Shown piece after piece: positions 25,517 through 63,283 of a DNA stretch of 64,000 bases. A model generated the notes under the pieces. That model was not told where the DNA came from and made no database searches. It saw only the letters and a program-made list of their open reading frames with translations. Where the stretch lies: assembly GCA_034620365.1 (NCBI GenBank), contig JAQGEQ010000191.1, positions 124,001 to 188,000 on the forward strand, given 5' to 3'. Both the position numbers and the translations under genes were made by a program. Positions within the stretch are counted from its first letter, which is position 1; every line of letters begins with the position of its first letter. Origin of the DNA: Pegea sp. RAD2-039. Its lineage: Eukaryota > Chordata > Thaliacea > Salpida > Salpidae.

Positions 25517-28500
25517 ACGTCACTCAAATATCTTATATTTTTATATTTCAAAAAACAGCACAAATAAAAATGTTTGATGATGACGTATAGCTCAAAGTGA
25601 TGACGTCTAGAGGGCTGATGACGTCACTTGGCGATGTTGATAAACGGAGGAGCGTTGAAAGCATCACATGAACATTTACAGTCACTCACAGGACATTTGA
25701 GGTGCGTTCTGTATAAAGTTCAAAAGTTAATAGAGGTCTTTACAGAAGTTCAAAGGTTACTAGGCGTCTTTACAGAAGTTCAAAGGTAACTAGGGGTCTT
25801 TACAGAAGTTCAAAGGCTACTAGGGGTCTTTACAGAAGTTCAAAGGTTACTAGGGGTCTTTACAGAAGTTCAAAGGTTACTAGGGGTCTTTATAGAAGTT
25901 CAAAGGTTACTAGGGGTCTTTACAGAAGTTCAAAGGTTACTAGGGGTCTTTACAGAAGCTCAAAGGTTACTAGGGGTCTTTACAGAAGTTCAAAGGTTAC
26001 TTAGGGGTCTTTACAGAAGTTCAAAGGTTACTTAGGGGTCTTTACAGAAGTTCAAAGGTAACTAGAGGTCTTTACAGAAGCTCAAAGGTTACTAGGGTTC
26101 TTTACAGAAGCTCAAAGGTTACTAGGGGTCTTTACAGAAGTTCAAAGGTTACTAGGGGTCTTTACAGAAGTTCAAAGGTTACTAGGGGTCTTTACAGAAG
26201 TTTCAATTTTAATAGGAGTCTTTAAAGAAGTTCAAAGGTTACTAGGGGTCTTTACAGAAGTTCAAAGGTTACTTAGGGGTCTTTACAGAAGTTCAAAGGT
26301 TACTTAGGGGTCTTTACAGAAGTTTAAAGGTAACTAGAGGTCTTTACAGAAGCTCAAAGGTTACTAGGGGTGTTTACAGAATTTCAAAGGTTACTAGGGG
26401 TCTTTACAGAAGTTCAAAGGTTACTTAGGGGTCTTTACAGAAGTTCAAAGGTAACTAGAGGTCTTTACAGAAGTTTCAATTTTAATAGGAGTCTTTAAAG
26501 AAGTTCAAAGGTTACTAGGGGTCTTTACAGAAGTTCAAAAGTTACTAGGGGTCTTTAAAGAAGTTCAAAGGTTACTTAGGGGTCTTTACAGAAGTTCAAA
26601 GGTAACTAGAGGTCTTTACAGAAGTTCAAAGGTTACTAGGGGTGTTTACAGAAGCTCAAAGGTTACTAGGGTTCTTTACAGAAGTTCAAAGGTAACTAGA
26701 GGTCTTTACAGAAGTTTCAATTTTAATAGGAGTCTTTAAAGAAGTTCAAAGGTTACTAGGGGTCTTTATAGAAGTTCAAAGGTCACTAGGGGTCTTTACA
26801 GAAGTTCAAAGGTTACTAGGGGTCTTTACAGAAGCTCAAAGGTTACTAGGGGTCTTTGCAGAAGCTCAAAGGTTACTAGGGGTCTTTACAGAAGTTCAAA
26901 GGTTACTAGGGGTCTTTACAGAAGTTCAAAGGTCACTAGGTGTCTTTACAGAAGTTCAAAGGTTACTAGGGGTCTTTACAGAAGTTTCAAGTTTAATAGG
27001 GGTCTTTAAAGAAGTTCAAAGGTTACTAGGGGTCTTTACAGAAGTTCAAAGGTAACTAGGGATCTTTACAGAAGTTTAAAGATTACTAGGGGTCAATAGC
27101 TTACTTAAACCATTCCGACATATGTTCGTAATGGCCTCCATGACGACAGCTTGCACAGACAGCAAGCCAATTACGAATATCTGCGATAAACTTCAAAATT
27201 TAACAGTTTTTCAGATTTAGAAAAGTTTCAAATGAAAAGTTGGAAATTATAATCTTTAGATAAATTAGAATTGCAATTATTTTAATGAAGAATATCCGAC
27301 ATCAGTGTTGGATTTAAGACATAAGATTCGTGGAAAAAGCTATTAAACAGGAGTTCAGGTCTTTTAGGGTCCTTAGACCAGTTTTAGGAGTTTATAAGAT
27401 TTAATGAAAACTGTTTGATTCTAAAATTGAAGATTTTTATATTTTACATCTTAGACAAGAAAAGAGCCCCAAAAAACCCTAAATCCTTTCTCTACCTCGA
27501 TCTTCTGGTCGACATCCAACATATTTGCTACAAACACAACAACGAGGAAGAGGTCTTCTACAATTCGGACAACTTGTAATCTACAAACATTAAACTCATC
27601 GAATCACAAACCGTCATCAAATCGCGACTTACCATCGATGACGTCACAGCATCTCGAAATGCATCACGATAACTAAAAGCTGGTCTCTCTGCAAAGTAGT
27701 AAAATAAGTCATGTGACGTAGCTATGACGTCATCCACACCTTTAGCTGTGATTGGTTTAGCGCAGAAATTGCAGTGAACCATGACGACGGCCTGATTGTT
27801 ACTTGATGACGTCATATACGCGATGACGTGAGACGGCGAAGTTGGTTTAAGGTTGTTGAGCGTCTGCGACCAGGTCTTGTCAAAGTTGATTCGTTCAAAA
27901 TAAAACTGCCACGAGTTAAGAAGCGTCGTGTATCTGTAATTGATGACGTCATCTCAGTGCTTGAGAAGGGATGACGTCATCATTACCGTTCTTTCCAATG
28001 CTGAGATTTCGAAGACTGAAGCAAAGAAGGATTTTGTGAAAGAAGAATTATACCAAGGACTGTTTGATAGTCGAGATTCTGTAGAAAATTGAGTTTAGGG
28101 GCGTTTTTGGGGTTTTTAGGGCACCTTTTCCAGATAATCTTCTAATATTTTAATTGTGACGTCATCATGAAGTCCAGTAATGACGAGAAGATCAAGTGAA
28201 GGATTTGAAATCGATTTGAAACGAAGTTGTTTGAAGAATGAGATTAATGAATCAGATGAAAGATGTAGACATGCAAATCCAATTCGATCAGATAAAAGAA
28301 GGTCCTGAAAGTAAAGATCAGATGAAGATCAGATGAAGATCAACAAATTTTACTTCATTGAAAAGTATTTCTTTAAAATATTCAATTTCTTTTTGATTTT
28401 TTCGTTTCTTTGCAGACATCAGTAAAAACCAAAAAGCGGCACAAAGATATGAATCTTGTATTGTCCATTTCAAGTTACTACAAGTTTCTTTCCATAACTG

Positions 28501-30366
28501 GCTACTTTTCAAACCATCAAAACCACTCATTGCCATGGCGACAGTTGACCAGTTAGGCGATTTCGAAATACCTAGCAACCAACATTACCACATAAAATCG
28601 ATTTGGTTACGTCACTAACCATCATCTTGTAAAACTTCGATTGCAGAAGTCAAATTAAAGTTCCAAAGAGCTATCGAGGCTAATCGGGATGTAGTGGCGG
28701 GGTTTGGAGCGTTAGTTTCCCGCAGATGAGTCATCATAGACTCGAAGCCAATTTCTTCTTCAATATCATCGGTAATTTTTAACCATCCGCACATTTGTAG
28801 AATTAATCGTCTGTTAATACATCAGATATAATTGGCATGATGACGTCATCAGCTGACGTCACCTAGTTGGGCTTTGATAGATGGTTCCAAAATTTCCTTT
28901 AGCTCCTTTCCATTCAACTTTCCTCAAAGAAGTCTTCTCCTCATTACCTGATGACGTCACATACAAGTTAATGATGACGTCACTTAGGAATTACTTACAA
29001 TTGAGAAGTTGAAAACATCCGAAGAGCCCTTTGAGAGGAACAAAATCATTTGATCCTGGAGGTAGGGATCCAGTTGAAGGAGATTGTTGAATATTTGCGG
29101 ATTTTTTTGAAAAAAGTTGAGATTTTGATTTTTGAATATGTTTCAATTTTTGTGTATTTAATTTATTAATTTCATAAACACGATGAATCCACAACCAAAT
29201 CGATTTTAGAGGTAGATTTCCACTTTCCAGTGATAACTCAACATTTTTAATAATATTTTCTGCAAGTTGAAAAACATTTGAAGAAAGTGAAACATTTGAT
29301 GACGTCATCACCTCTTTGAAGAGCGTATCCTGTTTTAGCGCGCTTTTTCATTAAATCAGCGTAACAAACTCCTTCAATATAAAGATGTTCGGCAGTTGAA
29401 CAATCATAGATTGAAACGATGTTTCGGCAAAATGTCCCAACTGTTTTGCCACTTTGAAAACTCGCAAGTAGTCTTTCAGGAACTGTTGCTGTGCAGAAGT
29501 TGCTGACGTCATCACATACCAACAGTTTATTAAGATTGCCAGGAAACCAACTCAAAGTTTCAATATTTTCCTGAAATAACATTTACATCTGAAAGATCAA
29601 CTTCCGGAAGATACAACATCCGGTCACCTTAGGAACACGAACAGTTTTTTTGAACAGATTACAAGGTGATGTTTGTGATTGTCCATTATTGTACATCACC
29701 TGCCTGATGACGTCATACACGTAAACACATGTTCTCGGAACGAGTTGCTGATTTAATGCTGGACCAACATCAACAGCTGATGCAGCGCGACAAACAGCTA
29801 ATTGACCACAAGAGTCCGGGGACCAAGTGATCTGTTGATGACGTAATAAGTCAAAGATGAAATAACAACTTTTATCAACTTTATTCTAATCGCTGATCAC
29901 GTCACAACAACACTGATGACGTCACCATATCCTTACTGACGTAACAACAACACTAATGACGTCACCTTGGTGATTTGTCCGGGAGTAATGATTGAAAGAT
30001 AAGGAGTTGAGAAATTTCTAGAATCCCAAATAACAATTGTTTCATCATGATAAGAAGCAATTCGAGTATCACTAAAAGGATCACAACAGATCCCATAGGT
30101 TGCCTAGAAACAAGATCATGGTTAGAAGATGAAAATGAGATGAAGATCAACTGACAATATTTGAAACTGTTGAATTAACTGGAGTTTTTCCACTTCTGAT
30201 GTCATAAATTTTTACTCCTTTATTACGAAATCCTGTGATAAGGGCATCTGATTGAAGCCATGATAATGACGTCACTGAATCATTCGCTAAGCTCATTGGC
30301 TGTGTTGTGACGTCACTCAAACCAAATCTGAAAAAACCACTTTGGTTACTAGCCTAATATGACGTC
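25517..30366. other. cluster of TGACGTCA palindromes across MIOS
   Basis: At least 20 exact copies of the octamer TGACGTCA lie in this gene. Examples are near 25517, 25618, 27640, 27726, 27804, 27942, 27970, 28156, 28838, 28851, 28951, 28974, 29299, 29503, 29705, 29912, 29957, 30266, 30308 and 30359. They sit in introns and exons alike; in exons they encode DDV[IT] or [VM]TSS. The octamer is the canonical CREB/ATF site, but this density is unlikely to mean 20 real promoters. Confidence 0.85.
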
Positions 30367-31009
30367 ATAAAACCTTGGAGAGTTTGAGGATCCCTTCAGA
30401 GTCGCGATACCTTTGATATCAAATGAACTTTCAATCAAATTAATGTCCCAGATAAGAAGTGATGATAACCTGATGTAACAGCCAATCAGATAACAAGTTA
30501 TCTAGTTGATCACGTGACCTACTTGTTACTTCTATCGAATTTTTCAAAGCCTGCCGCAATTCGATTTGAGTTCTTTTGATTCCATGAAAGACTGGTACAT
30601 GGATGCGTTACAGATGGATGAGATTTAGTTTGCTTGTGGTTTGTACTTTTACTGTTTACAGATTGGCTGAAATATTGACTTACACTGTCTTCTGAGATAG
30701 TTTTCATCAAAACTTCTCCATTCTCTAACCCCAAGGCAACAACATCACCAACATCAGAAGAAGTAGGCCGCCAACAAAAGCACTTTAAAAAGAAATAGAC
30801 AAATATCATCAAGTTGAAACTTTAAATTGTTAATTTACTTTAGTAGGAACTCCAAAATTAATGCTTTGAAAAGGAGAGACTTTTCCTAAATCTTCATTAT
30901 ACTCTTTTACTGTTTTGTTATATTCATTTTTTTGAAGTTTATAAAAACAGATTTCTTTATTTAAAAAAGCCAACAAGTCAGGTTTATATGGATTAAAAGA
31001 TAGTTCCAT
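25624..31009 (-). CDS. MIOS: MIOS, GATOR2 complex subunit
   Basis: WD-repeat subunit of GATOR2, which relieves GATOR1 inhibition of TORC1 at lysosomes when amino acids are present. ATG at 31009-31007, TGA at 25626-25624. Exons: 30839-31009, 30530-30782, 30374-30469, 30156-30327, 29966-30103, 29628-29831, 29312-29570, 28999-29259, 28863-28947, 28620-28810, 28354-28571, 28125-28304, 27987-28078, 27633-27933, 27496-27580, 27105-27180 and 25624-25708. They total about 955 aa; human MIOS is 875. Exons 1-7 form the N-terminal propeller (IAAGFEKF, IWDINL, IASYHDETIVIWDSR). Exons 8-13 form the solenoid (LILQMCGWLKI, VAMAMSGFDG, YLCAAFWFL). Exons 14-17 form the zinc-binding end (VHCNFCAKPI, CPNCRRPLPRCCVC, CASCRHGGHYEHMSEWF, KCPVSDCKCSC). 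Every junction keeps phase except exon 2/3, which is one base off. Most introns are 50-100 nt. Confidence 0.95.
25724..27092. repeat. 30-bp minisatellite filling the last MIOS intron
   Basis: About 45 tandem copies of a 30-bp unit (GGGGTCTTTACAGAAGTTCA then AAGGTTACTA on the plus strand). Variants include CTTAGG insertions, GAAGCTC, and a recurring AATTTTAATAGGAGTC sub-variant repeated at intervals, which points to higher-order expansion of unit blocks. It occupies nearly all of the 1.4-kb intron between the exon ending at 27105 and the final coding exon at 25708. Confidence 0.97.
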
Positions 31010-34000
31010 TTTAGATTTCTCTATTAAATAATTTTCAAATTTATATTTGATAGAATAAGTAAAAATAATGATATAATTTAGAAATATTTACTTAACTGTC
31101 AAAATTAAACAATCTATTATTAAATTATTGTCAACAATCCAACTATATATTTATAAAAAACATAGATTTAATAAAACTGTGAAGTAAATGTATTATTATG
31201 CTTAAGTTCGTAATAAAAATAAACATGATTATAAAATATATATAAAAATCAAATAAATGTTTGTTATGTTATTTTATTGTTTATATATAAAATTGTTTTT
31301 TTTAACATTTATTTTTCTTAAAAAGAAAATAATATTTTGAGTTTAATATTGTTTTTGTGAAAAAAATAACAATTATTAACAGCTTTGGATTTAAAATGAC
31401 AAAACAAACTTTTTTATAATTATATATAATAAACTAATGATCTAAAACATTGATTATTAAAAATAGTTTAACTTTAAAAGGAATATAACAGAAATAGAAA
31501 TATTAAAATATAAAATATGAGACTAAGACTATAAATTACAACCATGTTTTTAAAACGAATTTCAAAATAGACAAAAATGGCAACATGAATCTTTTATTTA
31601 TTTTCTGTCAATTAATCGGGTTTATTTTCGTAGTTATTAAATAAAAAGAAAGCTGCTGATTTTAAAAATTAACTTGAAAGTTATTGATTTAAATATTTTC
31701 GTCAAAGTTCTCAGTAGTTTTTAATAAAATACACCGAACAACTTTAAAGAAAATATTTTGAAGTATTTCACCAATTTTGGGATAATTATTTATATCCTAA
31801 ACTTTTTTAAACTGAAAATTAATGTATTGTATCAAAACACGATTAAGTACTTCGAAAGAAAATTGTTGCTGATTATTTGAAAAGTCATCTGCTTTCTCGA
31901 CTATAAGTTGGTTTATTTTATTTTTGCTAAAATAAAAAAACTATAAGTATAGTTAGAATTGATTGTTCCTTTATTATTTAGCGTTTTTGTTTGTACTTGT
32001 ATATATAAATGTTGATCAGTTTACTTATATGTTTAGGTTTCTTAAAAAACGAAAAGTTTAAATTGTTTTAACAGAAATTTGTATTTTATCAGTGGAATTA
32101 AATTGGTAGGTTTTCAATGCAACAATCAAAAAAGAAGTAGGTTCTCCTCCATAATTTGTTGATCTTCTCTTTTTATCATTGCGTAAGCTTATTATGTTTT
32201 ACTAGAAAGTAGGTGTGTTAAAAAGAATTATTTAAAGTTACTTAAAGACATGTTTTAAAGTTTTAAAGAGTGTAAAGAATAATGTATAAAAATAAATAAA
32301 AAAATATTGTCAATTTATTTATTAATTAATTATACTTTGGCGAATTTGAAAAATTTTCTCAGAACTAGATTTATAGGAAGATTTTTAATCAGAAATATCG
32401 AAATTGATTAGTAACTTTGCAATTTATTTTGAAAGTGTAAAAACAAGGAAGCATGAAAGAGAAAAAAACCCTGAAAGAGTTTGAATGAAAATAATCAACA
32501 AAAATGTTTGACATAAAAACTGCTTCAGAAATAACTGAATGATGAAAAGCATGTGACCAGATAATAAAATTTCACAAAAATATTAGCTAAGTAGAAAGGG
32601 ATTTCGGTTGTTAATTGTTGGGTTTTGGTTAAGCAAATTGAACATTAAGTTGCCAGATATGAACAAAATCATTTTTCTAACTTAACCGGTACAATTTTAG
32701 ACAATTAAAAGATCCACCAGTCAGAGTTTGTAAGAAATTTTCAATTTGTAAATTGTACTTTAATTCCTCATTTTTTAAGTAATAGTGGAAACAAAATCAT
32801 CAACATCGAACTATATGTTTGTTTGCTGTCTCATAATCTTAATGATTAGAAATTTTTATTGTAGAAACCGAAAAACACTTAAAATTGTAAAAACGTTTTT
32901 TAGTAAAGTAAATCTCGTTGTAATAATTTGAGTTTTTCTGGTTACATCTTTAATTTTTTAAAAGTTAAATATCATCTCCATCAAAAACTATTTTGTGAAT
33001 ATACTTAAGCACACAACAGAAACCACTTTTAACTAGTTAATTATAAACTATAATATATATTTAAGTTATACTAAAAGCACTTGAAGCAACAGTTAATTAC
33101 AAAGCTATTTACTAAAGTTTTTAAATAAACAAATTGCTGCAGACAAATATTTTTGTAGTCGGTCACTATAAACTATTTCAAATATTTACAAAATTAGTAA
33201 TCTCAAATCATTTACGTCAATGCTTTAATAAATTTTGAAACTAGATAGTTAGGAAACCTTGGTAATTAATCATTGTTTACTAAATATATCTTTAAAAAAA
33301 TGACTTTATTTGAGCTAGATTCAGTGAAACATTCTGGTTTTGACAGATGAAAAAATAAATTCTTGAAAGTCATGTTAGAAAGTCAACAGAAAAACTTTTC
33401 TAACAAAAAGTTTTTTTATTTTGAAATGTAAATTGTTTTGTTTATCTGGAGGAAACAAGAAACTATTTCACGAAATAATTAGTTGAAAAATATCAGTGTT
33501 CGGTATTTTCTGCACGTTTAAGGGTTTACTAAATTACATTTTACTAAATTTGTGACTGTTATTGTGGTGGTAGTCTTTCCAGAAATGCTTTACAAATAAA
33601 ACTACCGATAGGAAGATGAGGTTGACTAATTCTTTAAAGATTTAAGTAAGATAGAAAAGTCTTTAAAAATTACTAAATCTGTACAAGGAAACTCCGGCAA
33701 ACAACGTTTTTAAGATTAGTACAGCATAAAGAGAATTATTTTTAATCCACATCTTTTAAACTTTCATTTATTATATAAATAATGAAGTGTTTATTTGATC
33801 TAATATTTTATAATTTTGTTTCACAAACTCAACCGTGTAGATTACAAACAGTTTTTAAATTTGAAGATAAAAATCAAATGAAAATAATAAACTTTTTTCC
33901 ATCATTTTCTATTCTTTCAAGCTTCTAACAAAGGCAAGCTAAATTTTCTTTAAAATTCAGAACATTTTTATACAAGGCATTTAACACTTAAGTCTGTTGA

Positions 34001-35990: not shown

Positions 35991-35994
35991 TTTT

Positions 35995-36180
35995 TATGTA
36001 TATAAATGCGAAGGAGGGTGCCTGAAGAGAGCACATCTCGCTGACACACATTCTCACGAGTTTTTTTATAGTTTTTCTCAGGAGTTTTATAAATATGTCT
36101 CCACCTGGGGTCGAACCCGGTACTTCCTAGCTAGAAGCTTGTAGCTAGGTGTAGTAACCGTTTCGCCACCAAGCAGGACA
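35995..36180 (-). mobile_element. tRNA-derived SINE
   Basis: Read on the minus strand, a tRNA-like head starts near 36179. It has a box-A-like TGGCGAAACGGTTACTAC and a box B GGGTTCGACCCC at 36118-36107. Between them is a long hairpin around an AAGCTT core. A body of about 90 nt follows, ending in a conserved-looking tail (TCAGCGAGATGTGCTCTCTT, then CAGGCACCCTCCTTC) near 36007. A matching tail lies in inverted orientation at 37058-37103. It is not a functional tRNA: the acceptor arms do not pair well. Confidence 0.7.
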
Positions 36181-36959
36181 ATTTTCTAGAGTGATCTCTA
36201 CAAAGATCAAAAGTTGAATACTTGATTTAATGATTTAGTTTTAAAGGCTCTTCAACAAGTCTCACTAAAGAAAAATTGTTTGAAACGTGCTTCCGATAAA
36301 ATAATTTCAGAGTAACTTAGAGAATTTTGTTTAGAAATAACTAGAGATCTTTAATTCCGACTTATGATATGATTAAATTATTTTCATAATGCTCAAAAAT
36401 CAATGAAGAGACACCGAATGTAAAAGTAAATATGAAAATAGAATTTTAGAAAAGAAAATTTTTGAATAAAAAAACTTTTTGAATCGGGGCTAAACACAAA
36501 GCTACATGTTTAATATGAATATTAAAGAAATTGTTTCGAATTTGGGAAAATGTTTTCTCCTTTTTCTTGATTATTTAAATTTCTATTTCTCTGAAACTTT
36601 CAGATCGAAACAACTTTTAAGTGTTGTGTATGGATTATTATTTTGAATATTTTAAGAATACTTTTTTAAAGTTTTTATTTTAATATTAATACTATTATCA
36701 GCTTTGTCTTTTCTCAAAGACCTCATACAGAGCTTGGCCTTCTAACCAATCTCCGCTTTTACTCGACTGAAAGAGTTTTTACAAGAAAATGTAAATGGCT
36801 GATTTAATGCTGAGTGCCTCAAAATTTACTATTTTTCATACTAGGGTTACAGATATATCACTCTTTCTACTCTTTAAAAGATGGTATTTAAATCAAATTT
36901 TTTTTCTATATATGAAAAAATAGTTGAAACTATCTGTCGTGCTTTAAAATGGCTTTTAT

Positions 36960-37105: not shown

Positions 37106-37238
37106 TTATTGTAATAAATCTTGGTATTTGCAATCAAGCTTTTTAATATTAATGCATACACACGTTCTCGTTAACTTAACTCGGTTTTGAAACTAACCTC
37201 GTTTTTACAGAAGCCTTGGGTAGTATATTATTTGTAAA

Positions 37239-37694: not shown

Positions 37695-37727
37695 TTATCA
37701 AATATGTAACTTACTGTTAATATAAGC

Positions 37728-38485: not shown

Positions 38486-39934
38486 AACAGTTGTTCTAAT
38501 CTTTTGTACTACTATAACATCAAATATTCTTAAATAATTTGCGATAATCAACTCTTTTGTTATATATAAGTTTTCATTGGATTTGTAACTTAATAAAAGT
38601 TTAGTTTTGATTTTATGTCTTTAATCACACTTGTACTATTTGAGTTTTTCTTTGAAAACATTTGGGATTTATCTTTGATCGAGGTTTCTTAAGAATAAAT
38701 TCATCTTTTCATTCGGGAAGAATCTTAATGATAGAAATTATTATCCAATATTTTCTCGGCTTTTGATAGATTAGATATGATTTATACTTCATGCCAGTTT
38801 TGACCTAAATGAAAACGATCAATAATGAATAAATTTTGAATGTTAAGGTTTTTTTCTTTATTCAATTTTTTGTCGTAACCATAAATCTGCATTGTATGTA
38901 AACCTTAGGAATGAAACTTATTGTTGCTGAAAGAAGTAAAAAATCGTTTAATATACTTACTAAGTCCGTTAAAATTATCTTTTTTCGAAAACTGTAAGGT
39001 TGAAAAAAAGTATACAAAGAAACTTTGGTTTCAGTTTCTAAGATTCTTTTAGTTTTTAACTTCCGGTTGAAAATCAAATAACTTTAAAGCTTTATTTTCA
39101 ATTCGAATTTTTTTAATTGAATGGTTCTCAATTTTATTTGTAGAAATAAAGTAAAAATACAAATATCTTCACTTTACTAATTCTTCATACAAAAAATCCT
39201 TTAAAACATATTTGTAGTTCTGGAAATTATTAATTGTATATTTTATGAAGCTTTTAATAAATCTGATATAAGTTTTGATAATTTAGTCTTTTAACTGACG
39301 TCAGTTAAAATTCTTCTAAAAACTCATCACAAAGTCATCGAGTTATATTTCTAAAATTTCTACAAAATTTAGGTGTGTTCGAAAACTAGAATGAATATGA
39401 GATTATATCTCAGAAATAATTTGTAGAATTAAGATACAATCTGAAAGTTGTTGCTGATAACTGAATCAAAAAGTTTTCATTTCTATATTGATTCCTCAAT
39501 CATCAAATACTTTTAAAAGTATCTAATAATTTGATTAAATCTCAAATTAATATTTTGAAATTAAATTTTTGTGTATTAATCGAAAGTTTTTAAAAAATAT
39601 TTCCTTCTAAACTAACTGTGCATGAAACGCTCAAATAGATTTTATCTTTTCAAATGTATGAAGCAAAATAGTTTATTACAGAGCTTAAAGATCGATTAAA
39701 AATTAGCTTATTAGATACATAATCAAAAGACAATTATAAATTTGTAGTTGTAAACAGTTTTTAGCACAAATTACAAATATCATGATTTAGAAATTCACAT
39801 ATCATAGTGACTATTACAGAAATCGAAAACCAAAATAGTTCCAATAAATTAAAAAGCCAAATTAACGCATCTAGTTCAGATGATGATGATAAAACAAAAT
39901 TGCAAAAAATGAAATAATTCGAAATTGAGAGATT
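38486..39934. other. AT-rich DNA between LINE remnant and KYAT3
   Basis: No coding exon seen. One isolated CTGACGTCAG palindrome lies at about 39297. A TTTATT at 39672-39677 could be the KYAT3 poly(A) signal on the minus strand. Confidence 0.5.
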
Positions 39935-49952: not shown

Positions 49953-50189
49953 TAGTTGTATTGATAATCATTCTTTATAGAGCTTTATTCAAATTATTAA
50001 GACGATTAACAACAGCAATAATTACTATTATTAATTTTGCAAAGCAGAACCAAATTTTCTTGATTTTATTTACTGAGAAGTTATCGAGAGAAGTTAAAGA
50101 AAATCTTCGTGGAAAAGACTTTCATCTCTCTTAGAAATTGAAGATTGTCTGTAAAATGTCATACTACCCAAGTTTTAACTGTCTGCTAA

Positions 50190-51640: not shown

Positions 51641-52679
51641 TTCTCATTTTGCTTAACTGTGGAGTTTAAGACTTTTTTTGCTTTTTATTTTTCTGGATTA
51701 ATGTTTGCTATAAGGAGTTATGTGATTGGTTTATTTCGTAAAATAAGATTATAAAAATCTGCTACAATCTTGGCTATATGTATTTATTTCAAATATATGG
51801 TTTTGTGAATAGTTTTTTCAAAATGTCATCTTGCTTGAAATTATACTTTTGAAGTTGACTGCTTTATATCAAACAATAGTTTTATAATTAAAAGAAAATA
51901 TTCAAATTGAAACAAAAAAAGCTGAAAAAAATATTCAACTTGTAAACAAATTTATATAAAAATAAAACTTAGATATAACTATAGATCAGAATTGAATGAA
52001 AATCTTTTAAAATGACATTTTTCAACTTTTACTAAACAAGAGTTTTATGTTTTCAAATATTTTCAACTTGATGTAGTAATTTATTTTGTCCTTTTAATTC
52101 AAAACGAATCAATTTTTATATTTATATCCAGTTAAGACTGATCAAATGCAACGATGTTAATTAAGAATACTGATCCAATAAACAATTTTCAATAAAAGTT
52201 TTCTGTTGAAAGTTGTGGAACATGTTGTCGCTAGAAGTTTGTATCATCCACAATCTTTTTAAGTCTAACTAAATTCAGTTCTTCACTAATTACTTCTTCT
52301 TTTGTTCTATTTTTCAACAATTTTCATAAAATGTAGTTAAAAAGAAATAAAATATTTCGATGTTCTTTTTTTATTCCAACATTTAGAAATATTTTTTACT
52401 TTGATTGTTGATCATGCAATAAATAGAGAAAAGATCCAAAAAACTTATTTCTAACTACACACCTGCAGATAAAGTAGTGAGTAAAACAGAAGAACAAATC
52501 GAACTCTCACGCGTGATGACGTCACAAAGAAGATTGCACAACTACTAATTACCAAAAAAAGAAGAAATATAAAGAAAGATAAATAATATTTGCAGATCAT
52601 TCAATCATTTCAACAATTTGCTAAATTGCACTCAAATGCTCATGACGTCATCATTCAAGTCACAACAGCAATGACGTCA
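51641..52679. other. AT-rich DNA downstream of SEC16
   Basis: No gene seen. Three TGACGTCA palindromes near 52518, 52642 and 52670 lie just past the SEC16 stop. TTTATT near 52370 could be its poly(A) signal. Confidence 0.5.
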
Positions 52680-55600
52680 TCATCTACGAACAGGGTAACG
52701 ACCACGTGGTGCCCTGGAAATTTGTGGTGTTTTGAATTGGGCAGGATTATAAAAAGTAGCAACACTAGGACCGGGTGCTTCCACAGCTGGTTCAGAAACC
52801 TGTTAATTAATTGAAACAATCAGTTGCTAGGTAACTATAACGATCGAAGTGATGACGTCACAATTTGTTGTTAGCAACCAACCTGACTGTTACCATCTTT
52901 ATTATTTGCTTGTTGTTGGCTAGTGACTGGTTTAAAAACACCTGTGCCCAAAATTGGCGCTGAATTCAACTGAAAATTTAGTCAAAAATTAAATTAATAA
53001 AAAATGGCGACAATTTAAGAGCTTACTGAAGTTTGTTCCGAGGTTTCTTCAGTTGCAGATCTTTCTTCAGTTGCTTGAGTCACTTCAGCAGCTGTAGAAT
53101 TAGATTTCAAAAAAATTAAAGATTGGAATAAATTTTGAGTACCTGAAGAAGGAACAAACAAATTAGGAGTGAAGGAGGATTGTGGCATCATTGGCGGCAT
53201 CATAGGCGTTGCAAATGCGGCCGAATTATCATTTGAAGGCCGTTCAGAAGCATAAGGATTCAGATACATCGATCTTTTACCTGAAACAAACTAATTTGAA
53301 CAACTAGAAGTGATGACGTCATCAAGTTACTTTTGTTCTTCAGTGAGTATCTGTTGAGAGCAGATGTAGGTACAGATGGTGGTGATGATGATGTTGGTGA
53401 TGATGATGGTTTTTGTGCAAGAACAGGGTCCATAGGTGGAGGAGCTACTTCTGTCTCTTCATCATCACCATCTTTGTTGATCCAACGTTTGCGCTTTTCA
53501 CACCAATCAATCTGCAGTTGAAATTTCAATTTATTAAACTGGAAACACTACAGTTATCAATTAAAGAAAACAAATTAGAAACACTGTAGCTGAATTTTAA
53601 AGCAAGTGAATTAGAAACACTGTTTTTGAATTTTAAAGAAAGTGAATTAGAAATACTATGTTACTGTTTTAGTTTTGGCATCATCATCAGGTAAATGAAC
53701 TTGATTCTTTTTTTTTGAGAAAGATAACCATGAAAGCCAACCTTTAGTTTGCTACAAACAAAAATAGAATAAAAAATTTGTCGACGATAAAATTTGTTAG
53801 CAGATAAATACTTTTTCATCTTTTATATCTTTCATTGTTTCATTTTTCGAGTCTTTCTTTGATCGATTTGAGCTATGAGAGATTGTTCGATTCCGTCGAT
53901 TGTTTGACGACTGATATAAAAACGAATATTATAGAGAAAATATTGATATTTTTAGGTTAGCAAACTTACTTTGTTAAACATTTGGTCATATAAATCATCA
54001 TCTGCGCTAGTTGGGTGGTTTTCTTTATTGTAATTATCGGTCGGCTTCTATTTTAAATTAGTTTTATTAAAATGAAAATTTGCTTTATTTTTGAAAAAGA
54101 TTTTTTTTAAACAATATAAACCTGCCAAGATGCCTGTTGTTGTTGTTGTTGCTGATGTTGTTGTTGTTGCTGTTGTTGTTGCTGTTGTTGTTGTTGCTGT
54201 TGTTCGGAAGATTGTATCTGTTGTTTCAGTGGTTGATGCTGCTGCCCTAATAATAAGTTTTGTTCTTGTTGTCCATATTGTTGTTGATGTTGAAATGACT
54301 GTTGTTTTCCGTACTGTTGCTGTTGTCCATATTGTTGTTCTTGTTGTCCATATTGTTCTTGTTGTCCATATTGTTGATCTTGTTGTCCATATTGTTGATC
54401 TTGTTGTCCATATTGTTGAACTTGTTGTCCATATGGTTGTTCCTGTTGTCCATATGGTTGTTCCTGTTGTCCATATTGTTGAACTTGTTGTCCATATTGT
54501 TGTTCTTGTTGTCCATATTGTTGCTTCTGTTGATCTTGTTCTTGTTTATTTTCTTCTTGTTTATTTTGGGCATTATATTGTTGTTTATCATAAGACTGTT
54601 CTTGTTGAAATCCGTTATATTGTTGTTTATTATATTGCTGATGTTGTAATATCGGATCATTTAGTTGAGTATTTGAAGGATCTTCTGAAGTTAAATCATT
54701 ATAAAAACTTCGAGTCAAATCAAACTGAATCACTCACTTGTAACTTGATGAGTCAAATGATTATGAGTGACAGCTTCAGAAGATTCCAAATGCAAATGAG
54801 AAAAAGAAGATATTATCTGAAAATTACTGTGTTTGAGCATCACTAGTGAAGATCAGGAAATGATAAGGATCAAGAAGTGATGAAGATCAAGAAGTGATGA
54901 AGATCAAGAAGTGATGAAGATCAAGAAGTGATGAGGATCAAGAAGTGATGAAGATCAAGAAGTGATGAAGATCAAGAAGTGATGAAGATCAAGAAGTGGT
55001 GAAGATCAAGAAGTGGTGAAGATCAAGAAGTAATAAGGATCAAGAAGTGATGAAGATCAACAAGTGATGAGGATCAAGAAGTGATGAAGATCAACAAGTG
55101 ATGAAGATCAACAAGTGATGAGGATCAAGAAGTGATGAAGATCAACAAGTGATGAAGATCAACAAGTGATGAAGATCAACAAGTGATGAGGATCAACAAG
55201 TGATGAGGATCAACAAGTGATGAGGATCAACAAGTGATGAGGATCAACAAGTGATGAGGATCAACAAGTGATTAGGATTAGGAACTTACTGAGACAGGAG
55301 TTGAAACAGATGAATATTTGTCAATCGACTCGATGACGTCACATACTAATTCGCCTCTTAGAGCACTATCACAGAGTTGATGTAGTTGATCTATCCAACT
55401 AAATTCTGCCTCATCACAACCAGCCTTATGACGTGCATCGTGATATTTCATCGAGTCTACTAAATTTGTCAATGACGTCACGAACGCCGTCGTGAAAGAT
55501 CCATTGTTACGAAATAGAGTAGATGCTAGTAACTCGCAATAGTGAAACGCCTATCAAGTCATAATTCGGTTATAATATACTAGTTGGTGAAATCATGAAG

Positions 55601-58600
55601 CTTACTTGAGTTATCATACCACGTTCCATTAAACGACAAGCATATATGAGTTTGTAAGGCTGTAAAGCTAATAATGATGACGTCAAACCAGGGTACGATG
55701 TTCCCATGGAAACCGCATACTCATAAATTTCACTTCTACGGATTGCTTCGTTAGTAGCAAATTGGTTGAAAGGTAATCTGAAAAATTGTTACTATGACAA
55801 ATAGTTGCTATGATAAACGGTTGCTATGGCAAATGGTTGCAATGTCAAATGGTTGCTATGATAAACGGTTGCTATGTCAAATGGTTGCTATGACAAATGG
55901 TTGCTATGGCAAATGGTTGCAATGTCAAATGGTTGCAATGTCAAATGGTTGCAATGTCAAATGGTTGCTATGATAAACGGTTGCTATGTCAAATGGTTGC
56001 TATGACGATTGGTTGCTATGGCAAATGGTTGCAATGTCAAATGGTTGCTATGATAAACGGTTGCTATGTCAAATGGTTGCTATGACAAATAGTTGCTATG
56101 TCAAATAGTTGCAATGGCAAATGGTTGCTATGACAAATGGTTGCTATGTGAAACGGTCGCTATGACAAATGATTGATATGTCAAATGGTTACTATGACAA
56201 ATGGTTGATATGTCAAATGGTTGCTATGACAAATGATTGATATGTCAAATGGTTACTATGACAAATGGTTGATATGTCAAATGGTTACTATGACAAATGG
56301 TTGCTATGTCAAATGGTTGATATGTCAAATAGTTGCAATGGCAAATGGTTGCTATGACAAATGGTTGCTATGGCAAATGGTTGCTATGTCAAATGGTTGC
56401 TATGTGAAACGGTCGCTATGACAAATGATTGATATGTCAAATGGTTACTATGTCAAATAGTTGCTATGTCAAATGGTTGCTATGACAAATGGTTGCTATG
56501 ACAAATGGTTGCTATGTCAAATGGTTGCTATGTGAAACGGTCGCTATGACAAATGGTTGCTATGACAAATGGTTGCTATGGCAAATGGTTGCTATGTCAA
56601 ATGGTTGCTATGTGAAACGGTCGCTATGACAAATGATTGATATGTCAAATGGTTACTATGACAAATGGTTGATATGTCAAATGGTTGCTATGTCAAATAG
56701 TTGCTATGTCAAATAGTTGCAATGGCAAATGGTTGCTATGACAAATGGTTGCTATGGCAAATGGTTGCTATGTCAAATGGTTGCTATGTGAAACGGTCGC
56801 TATGACAAATGATTGATATGTCAAATGGTTACTATGTCAAATGTTATATGTCAAATGGTTGCTATGACAAATGGTTGCTATGACAAATGGTTGCTATGTC
56901 AAATGGTTGCTATGTGAAACGGTCGCTATGACAAATGGTTGCTATGACAAATGGTTGCTAAACGGTCGCTATGACAAATGATTGATATGTCAAATGGTTA
57001 CTATGACAAATGGTTGATATGTCAAATGGTTGCTATGACAAATGATTGCTATGTCAAATGGTTGCTATGACAAATGGTAAATATTAAAACGGTTGCTATG
57101 AGTAATGATTACTGTGATATGGTTACTATAAAACTTACGTATGATCTGATCCCACGAGAACTACTTTACTGGATTTTTTATTAAAATATCCGAATGGAAA
57201 AACTGAGATTAAATAACAAAAATGAGCAGCATCTAATAATCCTTTGCTTGCAAGTGTATCACCCATATTAAGAACAACTTCTGAAGTTTTACTGGTTTCA
57301 TTTGATAATATCATTGCTAAATGAGGTTTCCAATCATTCCAACCTTCACTGGCAACTGACTAAAAAATCGAAATAAATACTTTGATTTGAAGATTGAAGT
57401 GAGATATTTACAGTGACTGAAGCTGGTTGTCTTCCTGACATCAGTTGATACAAAGTTTGTAGAGGATCATTGATAGGTAATGAGTTAGCGAATCGAAGCA
57501 TAACATCAGCTTGCGCTCGTGTGTCGATTTTACTTGCTAATAACAACGCATGTCCCCATAATCCTTTCTTCATCGACCATTCAAGCGCTTCCTGCGGGAA
57601 ATTAGATCGATAAACCCCGACAACATCTAATTTTTTCTCGAACCTTTTTATTGCCACATAGCAAAAGTTGTCGGAAACGATTTAAAGCTGACTCACCGTC
57701 ATCTTCTCTATCTGTGACGTCACACATATTTAGTATAAGCGATAGACACGTGATGAAATGTTACTAACCAATAACTGAACGATCTATAAGTTGAGATGTA
57801 GAAATAAGATCAAAATCTCCATCATGATCAACCATCAACAAATCTGAGATGTCAGATCCCATTACAGTCTGCAAAAAGAATGGAAGATCAAATCTTAAAG
57901 ATTTAAAGATCAAATGATGAAGATTTAAAGATCACATGATGAAGATTTAAAGATCACATGATGAAGATTTAAAGATCACATGATGAAGATTTAAAGATCG
58001 AATGATGAAGATTTAAAGATCAAATCTTAAAGATTTAAAACTAACCCCGTTTTGTCGAACCATTAACGACAAGAAGTTCCAGAGAAGCGATCTTGATTCA
58101 CGATCAACTAAATCGAAGCTTTCAAGACTTGCAGCTGATTTGCGGTTTGCAAATTGAAGAACATCTTTTTTATGGGTACTTTTACTTTCCAGGGGACCCG
58201 GAAATAGTCTAAAATCTTCATAATCTTCCAAATTTTCCAACAAATTCTGTATTTAAATAATCGTTACATGACCTCATGTTGCGTTGATGACGTCACCTCG
58301 ACGTTGTGCACTTCAATGATAGCTGGTTGGTTAAGAGTTGGTTGATTAGGAAGAACATAGATCAATTGACCTCCAGCAGCAAACCGAACAATCGGATGAG
58401 ACATTGCAAACTTTGCTGGTGTACTTCGATGAATTTCATTCACTTCTGCGGGAATTTGAGTGTTGAAAGGCGGCCGAATATGAAACTATTACCGATAGTA
58501 CCTTGAGGAATTGCTGATAAATTACAATCAGTTGTATTATAAGGATCAAATGCTTGTTGATCGTATCCATGGTAACTGTTGACAACGATCGCTAAAATAT

Positions 58601-61600
58601 GATGGTTGTAACTTCATCAATATACTTACGGTCGATTATATTCATCAAAATATTGATTTAAATTTTCCTGTCGATAAGAATGCTCGCTGTAGACACTTCG
58701 TCGCTCGTCATCAACTTCTCGGCGCTGATGACGTAGATAATAATTGTCGTCATAATGACGATTATAATAGTTTTGTTGATGGTCTTGGTATTGGCTAAAA
58801 TAATTTAAAGATTAAATTGAATATCTACAAAAAGTACTAATTACGTTGCTTTATATGAGTCACGTGGTTGAGCGTATTGGTCACGTGATTGGCCATAGTA
58901 ATCACGTGATTGGCCGTAGGGGTCACGTGATTGGCCGTAGTAGTCACGTGACTGGGCATAGTGATCACGTGATTGGCCATAGTGGTCACGTAGCTGGTTA
59001 TAGTAGTCACGTGGTTGGTTGTTATATCCTGTAAATATATTTATGTAAAATGGAAAATATGAAGTTGTAATCTTACTTGAATTATCATATTTGTAATATT
59101 GATCATAATAATATTGTTGATCATAATAATCTCTGTGACCATAATAACCACGATTATAAGCACTGTGACTGCCGACAAAGATCTCGTTAAATTGTATCAA
59201 ATTTGTAACAACTTACCTTGAAAGATGCTGACGACCTGCATAACTGTCATGGTGGTAATCATGGACACTAGCTCGTGATAAAGGTCTGAAAGAAAAAACT
59301 CAGCAAATGTAAAAAATGGTCAGACTCTTACCTTTCATTAGGATTCCGATATAATGGATTTGAATTAGGATCAGGCGGTAATTGTGTTGAATATACTTCT
59401 AAATTATATCAAATAAATAAACAAAATATTTCAATTATCATTAATGACTATAAGTAACCTGATGCAGGTGGTTGGTGCTGAATGGTTGCAGCACTTGCAG
59501 GTGGTTGGTGCTGAATGGTTGCAGCACTTGCAGGTGGTTGGTGCTGAATGGTTGCAGCACTTGCAGGTGGTTGGTGCTGAATGGTTGCAGCACTTGCAGG
59601 TGGTTGGTGCTGAATGGTTGCAGCACTTGCAGGTGGTTGGTGCTGAATGGTTGCAGCACTTGCAGGTGGTTGGTGCTGACACTTGCAGGTGGTTGGTGTT
59701 GAAAGGTTGCAACACTTGCAGGTGGTTGGTGCTGAATGGTTGCAGCACTTGCAGGTGGTTGGTGCTGAATGGTTGCAGCACTTGCAGGTGGTTGGTGTTG
59801 AAAGGTTGCAGCACCTGTAGGTGGTTGGTGCTGAATGGTTGCAGCACTTGGAGGTGGTTGGTGTTGAATGGTTGCAGCGCTTGTAGGTGGTTGGTGCTGA
59901 ATGGTTGCAGCACTTGCAGGTGGTTGGTGCTGAAAGGTTACAGCACTTGCAGGTGGTTGGTGCTGAATGGTTGCAGCACTTGCAGGTGGTTGGTGTTGAA
60001 TGGTTTCAGCACTTGCAGGTGGTTGGTGTTGAATGGTTGCAGCACTTGCAGGTGGTCGATGTTGAAAGGTTGCAGCACTTGCAGGTGGTTGGTGTTGAAT
60101 GGTTTCAGCACTTGCAGGTGGTTGGTGCTGAATGGTTGCAGCACTTGCAGGTGGTTGGTGCTGAATGGTTGCAGCACTTGCAGGTGGTTGGTGCTGAAAG
60201 GTTGCAGCACTTGCAGGTGGTTGGTGTTGAATGGTTGCAGCACTTGTAGGTGGTTGGTGCTGAATGGTTGCAGCACTTGGAGGTGGTTGGTGTTGAATGG
60301 TTGCAGCGCTTGTAGGTGGTTGGTGCTGAATGGTTGCAGCACTTGCAGGTGGTTGGTGTTGAATGGTTGCAGCGCTGGTAGGTGGTTGGTGCTGAATGGT
60401 TGCAGCACTTGCAGGTGGTTGGTGTTGAATGGTTGCAGCACTTGTAGAAGGTTGGTGTTGAATGGTTTCAGCACTTGCAGGTGGTTGGTGTTGAATGGTT
60501 GCAGCACTTGCAGGTGGTTGGTGTTGAATGGTTGCAGCACTTGCAGGTGGTTGGTGCTTGCAGGTGGTTGGTGCTGATGGTTGTAGCACTTGCAGGTGGT
60601 TGGTGCTGAATTGTTTCAGCATTGGTTGGTTGGTCTTGCTGAATGGTTGCAGCAGTGGTTAGTGTTGGGTGCTGAATGGTTGCAGCAATGTTTGGTTGTT
60701 CCTGCTGAATGGTTGCAGCACCAATCGGTTGGTCTTGCTGAATGGTTGCAGCACCAGTTGGTTCATAGATATTTGGATTTAATTGAAGATTAGCTGTCAC
60801 TTGATTCATATGAACAGCGTGAGGTTGCCAGCTGGTTGTTGATTCAACTGTTGGTTGTTGATTAGTCGCATAAGTAGTAGGATGCAAGTGTTGATCCTCA
60901 TTTACTGAATTCAGGTCATCAACAACTTCTACAGATTGATGAAGATCTGGGCTTAGTTGCTGAATATCAAGACTTTGATGATGAAGATCAGAGGTCTGCT
61001 GATAAGGATCATAAGCTAATTGATGAGGATCAGAAGATAAATGATGGGGATCTGAAGATAAATGATGAGAATCATAAACTAGTTGATAAGGATTTGTAAT
61101 ATCTGGTGATATTTGAGACGACTTTTGTTGATCAATGTTTTCTGTAAAATCATCTTCAGTTGAATGCATCTGATCTATAAAAAATTATTTGAAAAAATCA
61201 AAAAAGAAAATAAAACAGAAATAACCTGAAAGAAATTCTTCTGGTGCAGAAATATTGTCATTTTCCTGTAAAAATTTCAATTAAATTGTTTATTTAGTAA
61301 TATTTCGGATTTTCAAACAACTAAATGGAAATCTAGAAATATTTATTGAGGAAACGATATAAGAAATATATTTACTTGAAGAGGTTTACTTGATTCATCG
61401 CCAATTTCATCATTCAAATAATTGTCAAACAGCAAATCATCCTACAAATTCAGAAATTGCTGAAAATATCAAAGAAAAAGTCGAAGAAACCTGTTTAAAC
61501 GTCAATCGAGTGTTGTTACTTGCTTCAGTTACTTCAAAGTCTGTAGTAAATAAAGAATTTAAAAGTTGAAAGTGATTTGAAGGAAGTTATTACTTGGATT

Positions 61601-63283
61601 GTAGATATTACCAGAAGTTGAAGATTGATTCTGCTGAAAAATAAATTCAAATCTTATTTCTGTTCTTAGATTCTTTAATAATCAAATATACTGATAAAAA
61701 GTCTTCAAATATTCTAATTAATTTTTAATTTAATCAAATAATAAAAGCCAAAGAAACCAAACTCTTTCAAACTAACCATATTCCTTTTTTAAACTTAAAA
61801 TAAAAAAAATAAGTGGAAAAAACAACAATTAGTTGATGACAAACACAGCAAGTACTAATCATACAAAATAATCATCTGAACCAACAAATCAAATATCAAC
61901 AACTTCAATAGCTACTTGAAATACCTGTAAAGAGACTGAAGTAGCTTCCACCTCTGTATCAACTGAATAATGTAGATTGATATCTTGTTGTGAATGTAAG
62001 TCCTGATCCACATGACTCTGATTTGAGTGCAAATTTTGCTCAATTGAGTATTCTTGTTGTGAATGCAAAATCTGATCGCTGAAGCCATCTTGTTGTTGTG
62101 AATGAAGTCCTTGTTCTGGTTGATAGATTTGTTGAGAATGTAAATCTTGATCCATTACAAGTTGTTGTGAATGAAGATTTTGTTCAACTAAATAATCTTC
62201 TTGTTGCTGAGAATGTAAATTATGATCCACAAAAGATTCCTGTTGTGAATGTAAGCTGTGTTCTCCATTTGATTCAGGTTGCTCTTGATCTACGTTGATG
62301 TAATCAACATTCGGCTGATTAAAGTGACTTCCGCCGGCTCTTGCAGTTTCATTTCCCGCCTGCTAAAAAAAATAGTTGCCTTTATATTTCTTATTTTTAA
62401 TCAATAACCTCTGATGACGCCAGATAGTGAGCTCTTTCTGGTGATGATGTCATTGGTTGCTCAGTAGCAGTGACGTGTGACGTCATTAGGATCTGGTCTG
62501 GTAACTAGCTGTTGATGAACTGAAGAAGGGATTGAATCTGGATCAGGTGGTATTCGATCAAGATGTAAAGACTGCTGGTTGTCTGTAAATAAAAGATCAG
62601 ATGAAGATTTGATAAAGATCAAGTAAAGATAAGTTAAAAATTAGATAAAATCAGTTGAAGATATAGGGTTAGATAAGCATCAGTTGAGGAAGATCTAAGA
62701 TCAGATCTTCTTACCCATACTTGGCCAGTTGAATTGTTCATTTACTTCATCATTATAAGCAGATTGATGATTATAAAAAGCTGGTTGTTGGTTTGTTGAT
62801 GTTGTTGGTTGACCAAAGTAATTATTATCAGGATCATATGATGACTGCCAGTTCATATTTCCACCACTGCAAAAAAATAGTTTGAAATATGATTCAGAAA
62901 TTGTTTAATTAGATGAATCATTTAACATTAGAGACTAGAATCAAATTTGATCAAAAATGGTTTTAATAATGAAAAACACACATGGGTATTAGAAGCATAC
63001 AAATACATGCAGAAAGTAAGTTGTATCTGATTAAGATTACCTTTGAGGACCTGGAAGGGGGTTTTCTGAATGATGAGGACTATTTGGTCCTAGAAAAATA
63101 AAATATCACTTAATTTACAAGAAAAAACTTTATTTCAAATCATTTGTTTCATGTTGACCTATCACCACCATATATCTCAACTCTGTCACCTTCTCGCTTG
63201 CGTGTTTCACTTATTACAAAAGCTTTTAACAATTTTGCAAGTTGAAGAAGGATATCAGACCAAGAAACCTCTTCTAATGACAT
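52680..63283 (-). CDS. SEC16A: SEC16 (SEC16A-like), ER exit site scaffold
   Basis: Peripheral ER protein that organises COPII budding sites by binding SEC13 and COPII coat subunits. ATG at 63283 (in-frame TGA upstream), TGA at 52682-52680. Thirty-three exons were read, about 2,130 aa; human SEC16A is about 2,360. The N-terminal exons (63283-58630) are a repeat-rich disordered region ending in a Tyr-rich segment like that of human SEC16A. The central conserved domain spans exons 58297-58575, 58046-58246 ([26 protein letters not shown]), 57769-57868, 57644-57711, 57412-57591 ([36 protein letters not shown]), 57139-57359, 55606-55777 and 55290-55550. The C-terminal part has a Gln-rich exon (54122-54684), [12 protein letters not shown] with NQVHLPDDD (53665-53751), [12 protein letters not shown] (53331-53511) and a final exon with FYNPAQF (52680-52799). 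Splice phases agree throughout, but frames slip by one base inside exons 62409-62582 and 58297-58575. Confidence 0.95.
54122..54240 (-). repeat. poly-Gln (CAA/CAG)n tract in SEC16
   Basis: Imperfect CAA/CAG run on the coding strand encoding about 25 Gln with interspersed His, immediately before ASWQ and the exon's donor at 54122. Confidence 0.9.
54250..54535 (-). repeat. QQYGQQE heptad coding repeat in SEC16
   Basis: About a dozen 21-bp units encoding QQYGQQ(E/D/V), continuous with the poly-Gln tract. The repeat is in the coding frame fixed by the flanking splice sites (exon 54122-54684). It is prion-like in composition. Confidence 0.9.
54845..55280. repeat. 17-bp minisatellite in a SEC16 intron
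   Basis: About 25 copies of GATCAAGAAGTGATGAA, changing to a GATCAACAAGTGATGAG variant toward 55280. It fills almost the whole intron 54817-55289. Confidence 0.95.
55785..57085. repeat. 16-bp minisatellite in a SEC16 intron
   Basis: About 80 copies of TGGTTGCTATGACAAA with GTC/GGC, GATAT and GTGAAACGGTCGC variants arranged in recurring higher-order blocks. It fills almost the whole intron 55778-57138. Confidence 0.96.
57890..58035. repeat. 22-bp minisatellite in a SEC16 intron
   Basis: About six copies of GAAGATTTAAAGATCACATG plus AT, running up to the splice donor of the exon ending at 58046. It fills most of intron 57869-58045. Its GATGAAGAT core resembles the 17-bp array in the same gene. 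Confidence 0.9.
58855..59020 (-). repeat. RDYYGQS coding repeat with in-phase CACGTG sites
   Basis: About eight 21-bp units encoding (Q)SRD-YYG within SEC16 exon 58845-59028. The codons TCA-CGT-GAY make seven CACGTG E-boxes at 21-bp spacing, with one unit mutated to CACGTA. Confidence 0.92.
59463..60640 (-). repeat. 33-bp coding minisatellite ([11 protein letters not shown]) in SEC16
   Basis: About 35 copies of a 33-bp unit (plus strand GCAGGTGGTTGGTGCTGAAT then GGTTGCAGCACTT) inside the single exon 59459-61174. In the frame set by both flanks it encodes [12 protein letters not shown] 17-nt partial unit plus a 32-nt unit (about 60548-60596) and a 23-nt unit (about 59668-59690) put the interior one frame off. 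Their combined length is a multiple of three, so the exon ends are in frame. Confidence 0.96.
60930..61100 (-). repeat. SSDPHHL-type coding repeat in SEC16
   Basis: Imperfect units encoding [20 protein letters not shown] and SPDLHQ in the Gln/His/Asp-rich part of exon 59459-61174. Confidence 0.8.
61965..62265 (-). repeat. (D/E)QxLHSQQ coding repeat in SEC16
   Basis: About nine units of 27-42 bp encoding a conserved LHSQQ core ([24 protein letters not shown]) within exon 61925-62362. Confidence 0.9.

Follow-up and report, generated by a model that had tools for sequence, protein, structure and literature searches.

The octamer TGACGTCA occurs in 27,792 exact copies in the 105.7-Mb, 387-contig assembly of Pegea sp. 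RAD2-039, an AT-rich animal genome, and 35 of these copies lie in a 64-kb stretch of one contig (JAQGEQ010000191.1, positions 124,001 to 188,000; hereafter the window) that includes the genes MIOS and SEC16. This octamer is the classical binding site of CREB/ATF proteins and is normally expected in front of genes; in the few genes modeled here, it lies within the gene body. Our tentative reading, to which we give a probability of about 0.4, is that the octamers are bZIP-bound intragenic sites in germline chromatin and that a small advantage preserves each of them.

The 35 octamers of the window compare with 0.39 or 0.43 expected from its dinucleotide or trinucleotide frequencies (Poisson P ~1e-53), and the higher expectations from tetranucleotides (2.7) and pentanucleotides (9.2) are self-inflated because those words are swollen by the TGACGTCA copies. 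One-mismatch versions number 29 in total over all 24 words. Eighteen octamers fall at 27.6–31.0 kb, the MIOS stretch, and 13 at 48.9–62.5 kb, in agreement with a first-pass annotation of the window that had estimated about 35–40 octamers where about one or fewer was expected, roughly half of them in MIOS and most others between 48.9 and 62.5 kb. Across the genome, the density is 263 per Mb, and the octamer is 29-fold more frequent than its reversed word (969 copies). The matched CpG palindrome AGTCGACT and its 24 neighbors total 19,582 copies, a mean of 783 per word, and TGACGTCA stands 35-fold above this mean; the excess therefore persists in the comparison with similar CpG palindromes that the annotation had named. 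The enrichment is sharp. With one mismatch allowed, the counts are 64,917 for TGACGTCA and 28,668 for the reversed word, and the mean per one-mismatch neighbor (24 neighbors) is 1,547 as compared with 1,154, so that the TGACGTCA neighbors together are 1.3-fold above the reversed-word neighbors and exceed the AGTCGACT family about twofold. Another palindrome, TCACGTGA, is also enriched, with 4,614 copies compared with 237 for its reversed word. The genome counts for rival palindromes cover TCACGTGA and the AGTCGACT family, and other palindromes were judged within the sample described below. The phenomenon is thus genome-level, as proposed earlier, and not a matter of a few promoter elements.

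The distribution is markedly patchy. The density of TGACGTCA is 64 per Mb in the first 1.56 Mb of contig C1 and 547 per Mb in the window. On the C1 stretch, 38 percent of the gaps between neighboring sites are shorter than 1 kb, compared with 6 percent expected. The variance/mean of the counts is 3.1 to 4.0 (5- and 20-kb bins). Fifteen ten-kb stretches picked without regard to the motif (L011–L025) contain 0 (six stretches), 1, 1, 2, 3, 3, 4, 5, 10 and 32 copies. Confinement to MIOS and SEC16, as first claimed, is not found, given the genome count and the nine of 15 motif-blind stretches with at least one copy. The strong density differences between genes do recur: L024 (32 in 10 kb) and L026 (20 in 7.5 kb) match or exceed MIOS and SEC16, and other stretches have none. 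Equal density elsewhere, which the annotation had named as counting against its proposal, is thus present in part, and MIOS and SEC16 are not special. Homeobox genes, taken as a contrast, were too few: two of 71 matches lie in the fully listed C1 stretch, with the nearest octamers at least 4.7 kb away.

The genome outside the window was sampled at about 0.25 Mb, and the gene models are few and made by hand. Logo, partner-word and GC-profile counts cover the window and L010–L025 (109 sites); L026 and L027 were added for neighbor counts, TpG+CpA and GC outside CpG-type contexts; the flank-similarity test covers 174 sites with L030 included, in a sample that, window included, amounts to about 0.25 Mb. 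L010, L026 and L027 were picked for already listed sites, L016 and L017 share the contig of the window, and L002–L009 were left out of all counts.

The flanks of the 109 sites read (TGA)TGACGTCA(TCA). With both flanks pooled, the first flanking base is T in 0.67, C in 0.23, G in 0.06 and A in 0.03, whereas preference is weak past the third base and nothing is clear past about the seventh. T or C at this position (0.90) agrees with the consensus RTGACGTCAY, and the flank rule (A/G)TGACGTCA(T/C) of the annotation is correct. Such a graded preference is what an ATF/CREB-type bZIP protein would impose, and the logo, judged by its sequence, corresponds to an ATF/CREB-type bZIP site with predicted binding. 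The genome also contains at least 12 bZIP_1 exon matches, one of them confirmed against Pfam, and three of the matches, read by eye, look JUN-, CREB- and FOS-like. The known cAMP response element (CRE), the site of ATF/CREB/JUN bZIP proteins, shares the octamer and the flank preference R-TGACGTCA-Y. It is distinct from the present case, in which about 28,000 clustered copies occur, located in introns and exons of the modeled genes and not in the upstream stretch examined. The earlier dismissal of CREB/ATF was therefore too quick, as the logo fits a bZIP site and only the location is unusual.

The copies share little beyond the octamer. When the octamer and three bases on each side are masked, the flanks of 10 of 174 sites resemble sequence elsewhere in the sample and those of 164 do not; local flank similarity is seen at 22 of the 174. 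An unmasked search gave matches for 148 of 204 sites, and the matches listed are mostly short and octamer-centered. Among near pairs (22–150 bp apart, two known arrays dropped), the mean identity of the better flank is 0.414 in direct and 0.343 in inverted orientation, compared with 0.342 for random pairs, and flank identity of at least 9/12 occurs in 5 of 60 near pairs in direct and 1 of 60 in inverted orientation, compared with 0.33 percent of random pairs. With flanks unrelated and duplicate-like near pairs few, an independent origin seems likely for most copies. A dispersed repeat family is rejected in the sample, where sequence beyond the octamer is shared at the 10 sites only; tandem duplication is a minor route, represented by the five direct pairs; and a literally propagating element, raised at first, is supported by neither observation.

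A search for paralogues gave mostly tandem arrays among the matches listed, and one useful non-array pair, at 48.9 and 49.9 kb. These segments are identical in 162 of 216 columns, and the 24-bp block ATGAGCAAATGACGTCATCAGTGA around the octamer is fully identical (P ~4e-4, given 72 percent identity outside it, for a pair chosen after the fact); the match stops just beyond the block. In this one case, an old site has been retained in both duplicate copies while the surroundings diverged. A short dispersed repeat lies a few bases after the 49.9-kb block (window 49962–50024, L017 950–1014, L012 402–473; 83 and 79 percent identical). A second MIOS copy, whether haplotype or paralogue, was not found in the assembly, in which only short repeat-like pieces matched besides the gene itself.

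Within genes, the octamers occupy introns above all in a piece of DNAH5 (L030), for which the best PDB match, from five exons, is dynein axonemal heavy chain 5. All 30 octamers of this piece are intronic, and 8 of its 10 hand-set introns carry at least one. One intron contains a minisatellite of octamer units (20 bp x21.6); without this array intron, there are 11 octamers in 472 intron bases and none in 2,056 exon bases (P 1e-8), of which about 38 may be intron. Exons 1–10 each have one open frame; the last exon (401 bases) can be read only as two separate open pieces, so that a further short intron, free of octamers, probably interrupts it. In the CCT-gamma chaperonin gene (L036), five of seven octamers are intronic (in 525 intron bases, within 4 of 10 introns of 45–61 bp), one lies just past the stop codon and one is exonic (in 1,629 exon bases), where the protein reads NIADVIRTCLG as compared with TIADIIRTCLG in the best PDB match. 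Three further octamers lie downstream of the gene. As regards intron content, CCT-gamma has its 10 introns, CCT-delta (L037) has 3 and CCT-alpha (L035) has none, and octamers are found only in the intron-rich subunit.

The MIOS gene model contains octamers in both introns and exons, as had been noted at first pass. Its PDB match covers the hand-joined exons between the gene start and about 29.8 kb, and 27.6–29.8 kb is assigned by open frames only. The identity of SEC16 in the second cluster is confirmed by the Pfam Sec16 mid-region and TPR_Sec16 domains. In addition, 5' splice sites reading GTGACGTCA occur at DNAH5 introns 1, 5 and 6, at CCT-gamma intron 10 and, probably, twice in MIOS, and a link between the octamer and intron gain through such sites is possible. 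By-eye readings of a formin gene (L010) and of APMAP (L017), for which the tested pieces have no Pfam match, were not relied on. The positions of the octamers and other features in the window are listed in Table 1.

Table 1. Octamers, genes and repeats in the 64-kb window (window coordinates)
Feature	Position	Strand	Basis or remark
Two TGACGTCA	starts 25515, 25619 (25515..25626)	.	exact matches; left of the 30-bp minisatellite 25716-27094
18 TGACGTCA, MIOS stretch, first nine	starts 27639, 27725, 27807, 27944, 27972, 28157, 28841, 28854, 28952	.	exact matches
18 TGACGTCA, MIOS stretch, last nine	starts 28975, 29300, 29504, 29708, 29917, 29957, 30267, 30308, 30360	.	exact matches; span of all 18, 27639..30367
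10 TGACGTCA in and around SEC16	starts 52517, 52643, 52672, 52853, 53314, 55334, 55473, 55678, 57715, 58288 (52517..58295)	.	exact matches
TGACGTCA near right end of window	62478..62485	.	exact match
Lone TGACGTCA	14602..14609	.	exact match
Lone TGACGTCA	39296..39303	.	exact match
TGACGTCA in first paralogous segment	48912..48919 (segment 48724-48929)	.	segment alignment
TGACGTCA in second paralogous segment	49932..49939 (segment 49734-49949)	.	segment alignment
MIOS (GATOR2 subunit), several short introns	27600..31010, left limit approximate	-	PDB MIOS chains, E 5.5e-24
Octamer within 46-bp MIOS intron	30360..30367	.	hand gene model; adjoining exons inside PDB match
Octamer at probable MIOS 5' splice site reading GTGACGTCA	29957..29964	.	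hand gene model; adjoining exons inside PDB match
Octamer at second probable MIOS 5' splice site reading GTGACGTCA	28854..28861	.	open frames only
Octamer in MIOS exon, VTS of NDSVTSLSW	30267..30274	.	ungapped against NDACLSLCW of PDB MIOS chain
SEC16 exon pieces, mid-region and Sec23-binding domain	55576..58252	-	Pfam PF12932 at 58019-58252; PF12931 at 57352-57681 and 55576-55788
TCACGTGA, second enriched palindrome	30510..30517	.	150 bp from an octamer
Minisatellite, 21-bp unit GTCACGTGATTGGCCATAGTG (TCACGTGA plus ATTGG/CCAAT word), x7.6	58859..59018	.	just right of SEC16 domain exons
Large minisatellites	25716-27094 (30 bp x46), 55783-57100 (16 bp x83), 59463-60558 (33 bp x33)

The surroundings of the octamers differ in composition from the remaining sequence. 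GC is 0.38 beside a site and drops to 0.275 more than 400 bp away; the observed/expected CpG ratio falls from 1.14 to 0.61 over the same range. Companion words are also enriched within 400 bp of sites, with 7 copies of TCACGTGA (0.43 expected) and 9 of ATTGGCTG/CAGCCAAT (0.76 expected), and 15 of the 36 CCAATCA words of the sample fall in this zone, which makes up 16 percent of the unmasked bases. The units of the minisatellites at 25716-27094 and 55783-57100 carry GGTTACTAGG and GGTTGCTATG, which we take to resemble half of an RFX X-box. Another minisatellite, with a 17-bp unit (54847-55272; TGAAGATCAAGAAGTGA), is matched by many similar stretches of contig C374 (L001).

One-mismatch neighbors are informative on the loss of octamers. 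Within 400 bp of sites, there are 128 exact copies and 54 neighbors, compared with 12.2 neighbors expected, and far from sites the neighbors are raised as well (51 compared with 30.0 expected). Among the 54 near neighbors, CpG-transition products (10) are fewer than TTACGTCA/TGACGTAA (13), so that strong hypermutability of the central CpG is not apparent, and methylation decay of this CpG as the main path of loss is unsupported. The neighbor excess per exact copy is 0.66 genome-wide (AGTCGACT-family baseline) and 0.33 near sites (trinucleotide baseline). By comparison, neutral decay alone would give an excess of about 1 per exact copy. Octamer decay exists, but seems to be below what a neutral balance of birth and decay leaves.

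These observations would be accommodated if TGACGTCA were a genome-wide set of sites for an ATF/CREB/JUN-type bZIP protein, located within the transcribed part of certain genes wherever it is tolerated: within short introns, immediately after stop codons and where an exon allows DV(I), VTS or MTS. A bZIP protein would occupy the octamers in germline chromatin and keep a few hundred bases around them open and free of methylation, and each octamer would bring a small advantage, with the result that point mutations creating an octamer would be retained. If at equilibrium, this advantage would amount to about 4 (4.2 computed) on a population-scaled log scale, and its likeliest source would be a chromatin role distributed along the gene body rather than promoter control. 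Such a role could explain exact-site recognition, a small advantage, the restriction to gene bodies and the rise in GC and CpG, provided that the choice of genes depends on the chromatin neighborhood.

Several observations weigh against this chromatin role. Maintaining about 28,000 sites by weak selection asks a great deal. No octamer occurs at the CCT-alpha, -delta and -theta loci, as compared with seven in CCT-gamma (four of the eight subunits examined; the 5' part of CCT-theta falls outside its fetched locus). As CCT subunits share one complex, octamers here are not distributed by expression class, an argument against expression class as the controlling factor unless the chromatin neighborhood decides. 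The link to GC and CpG is also loose: L024, with its 32 sites, has a GC of only 0.272, and a 255-bp exon of the site-rich MIOS gene has a third-position GC of 0.306 and a CpG value of 0.53. Furthermore, TpG+CpA is nearly equal near sites (1.09) and far from them (1.12), so that methylation-driven CpG decay outside the sites is not clearly seen.

We rank the chromatin role only slightly ahead of biased inheritance at meiotic recombination sites, a possible but doubtful alternative in which the octamer would be over-transmitted by gene conversion in recombination-active genes. For example, a bound bZIP protein might shield its own chromatid from breakage, and the motif-less homologue would be cut and repaired from the motif-bearing one. 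Conversion would have to favor the motif, whereas known motif-directed hotspots lose their motif through conversion, the hotspot conversion paradox. Biased inheritance would naturally account for the gene-body restriction and the rise in GC and CpG, and the independence of octamer presence from expression class agrees with it. GC outside CpG, TpG and CpA contexts is 0.254 at 0–50 bp from sites and 0.176 beyond 1,600 bp, indicating that CpG protection is not the whole cause of the gradient; however, GC is confounded with coding density, differences in which may contribute. Similarly, CCT-gamma exceeds CCT-delta in intron GC (0.42 with octamers removed, compared with 0.28) and in third-position GC (0.455 compared with 0.324), whereas the two genes are nearly alike outside CpG-type contexts (0.330 compared with 0.299). 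Minisatellites occur at site-rich genes, including that of octamer units in DNAH5. In Schizosaccharomyces pombe, the M26 (CRE)/CCAAT hotspots provide a parallel: the motif tested for high activity, ATGACGTCAT, agrees with the octamer logo, and CCAATCA, enriched near octamers here, is another hotspot motif (PMC3534124). The same study describes M26 and CCAATCA as uncorrelated with natural break sites in budding yeast, and the CCAAT motif as not above control (PMC3534124). Mass accumulation of the motif is distinct from the M26 case, and any link to recombination here would be indirect, through the GC rise and the minisatellites. That a chromatid-protecting, bZIP-bound octamer has been over-transmitted in a true conversion drive, accumulating wherever proteins tolerate it and shaping introns, splice sites and protein sequence, is unlikely.

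A site-directed repair or mutation process that turns near-matches into TGACGTCA, without any function of the sites, is also unlikely. The dominance of one exact word, with TGACGTCA far above TCACGTGA and the AGTCGACT family genome-wide, recalls HIP1 of cyanobacteria, likewise an over-represented palindromic octamer, for which methylation-dependent mismatch repair has been proposed as the creator (PMC4390886). The Pegea genome does contain C5-methylase genes (11 exon matches). The two methylase frames read look DNMT1-like by eye, however, rather than obviously like sequence-specific orphan enzymes; one frame, run against Pfam, has a BAH domain. Seven of the methylase matches lie in open frames of 832–873 codons (L040 and L041 on contig C57, and contigs C249, C32 and C52), and the two frames read look like intronless DNMT1 copies, one of which adjoins a LINE reverse transcriptase-like frame. 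More directly, such a conversion should deplete at least some of the neighbors near sites, and these are enriched; the restriction to certain genes would also be left unexplained. HIP-like palindromes are spread fairly evenly over the genome, in contrast to the patchy octamer described here, which further differs in its animal host, its occurrence at a subset of loci and its bZIP-like logo.

Ordinary cAMP- or stress-response control, with the octamers as promoter or enhancer CREs of their host genes, is improbable. In its favor, the logo matches a CRE, CCAAT and E-box words often accompany such sites in promoters, and CREB-, JUN- and FOS-like genes are present. At the two gene starts examined, however, the octamers are not located as promoter elements: none lies in the 992 bp upstream of CCT-gamma (16 percent GC), and the MIOS octamer closest to the start codon is about 640 bp inside the gene. 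Subunits of a single complex differ from seven octamers to none, as described above, although internal enhancers may be compatible with gene-body positions. Finally, membership of the octamers in a transposon, satellite or introner family is close to refuted by the 164 of 174 sites without similar flanks elsewhere in the sample and by inverted near pairs no more alike than random pairs, even if some minisatellites contain the octamer, several 5' splice sites read GTGACGTCA and local similarity exists at a few sites.

Other systems offer partial likenesses. Periodic A/T clusters (PATCs) occur in introns of germline genes of C. elegans, and the layout is comparable in that short DNA words fill the introns of a gene subset; by contrast, the word in Pegea is a palindromic CpG octamer in GC-richer surroundings. 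A PATC-like role of the octamer in marking germline-expressed genes would be hypothetical (7, 0, 0 and 0 octamers in CCT-gamma, -alpha, -delta and -theta). Bacterial DNA uptake sequences likewise combine sharp single-word enrichment with unrelated flanks, but the octamer is patchy over the genome, and we know of no DNA uptake system in animals. Duons, exonic transcription-factor sites, overlap codons as the exonic octamers do, and differ in density and genome-wide scale. Among the open-access papers listed, no description of mass TGACGTCA occurrence within the genes of an animal came up, which supports novelty only weakly.

One word that outnumbers its reversed-word control 29-fold, found in exons and in introns of about 50 bp, suggests a pressure at the DNA level that can oppose base composition and reach conserved proteins, as in the ADVI of CCT-gamma compared with ADII in its best PDB match. 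The placement of a CREB/ATF site inside genes, in the few genes examined closely, is not predicted by the usual account of this site. If a bZIP-chromatin function is true, the octamers would constitute an easily mapped intragenic code. If biased transmission is true, they would provide evidence for motif drive, long argued and rarely seen, and a conversion drive would be the hotspot paradox in mirror image.

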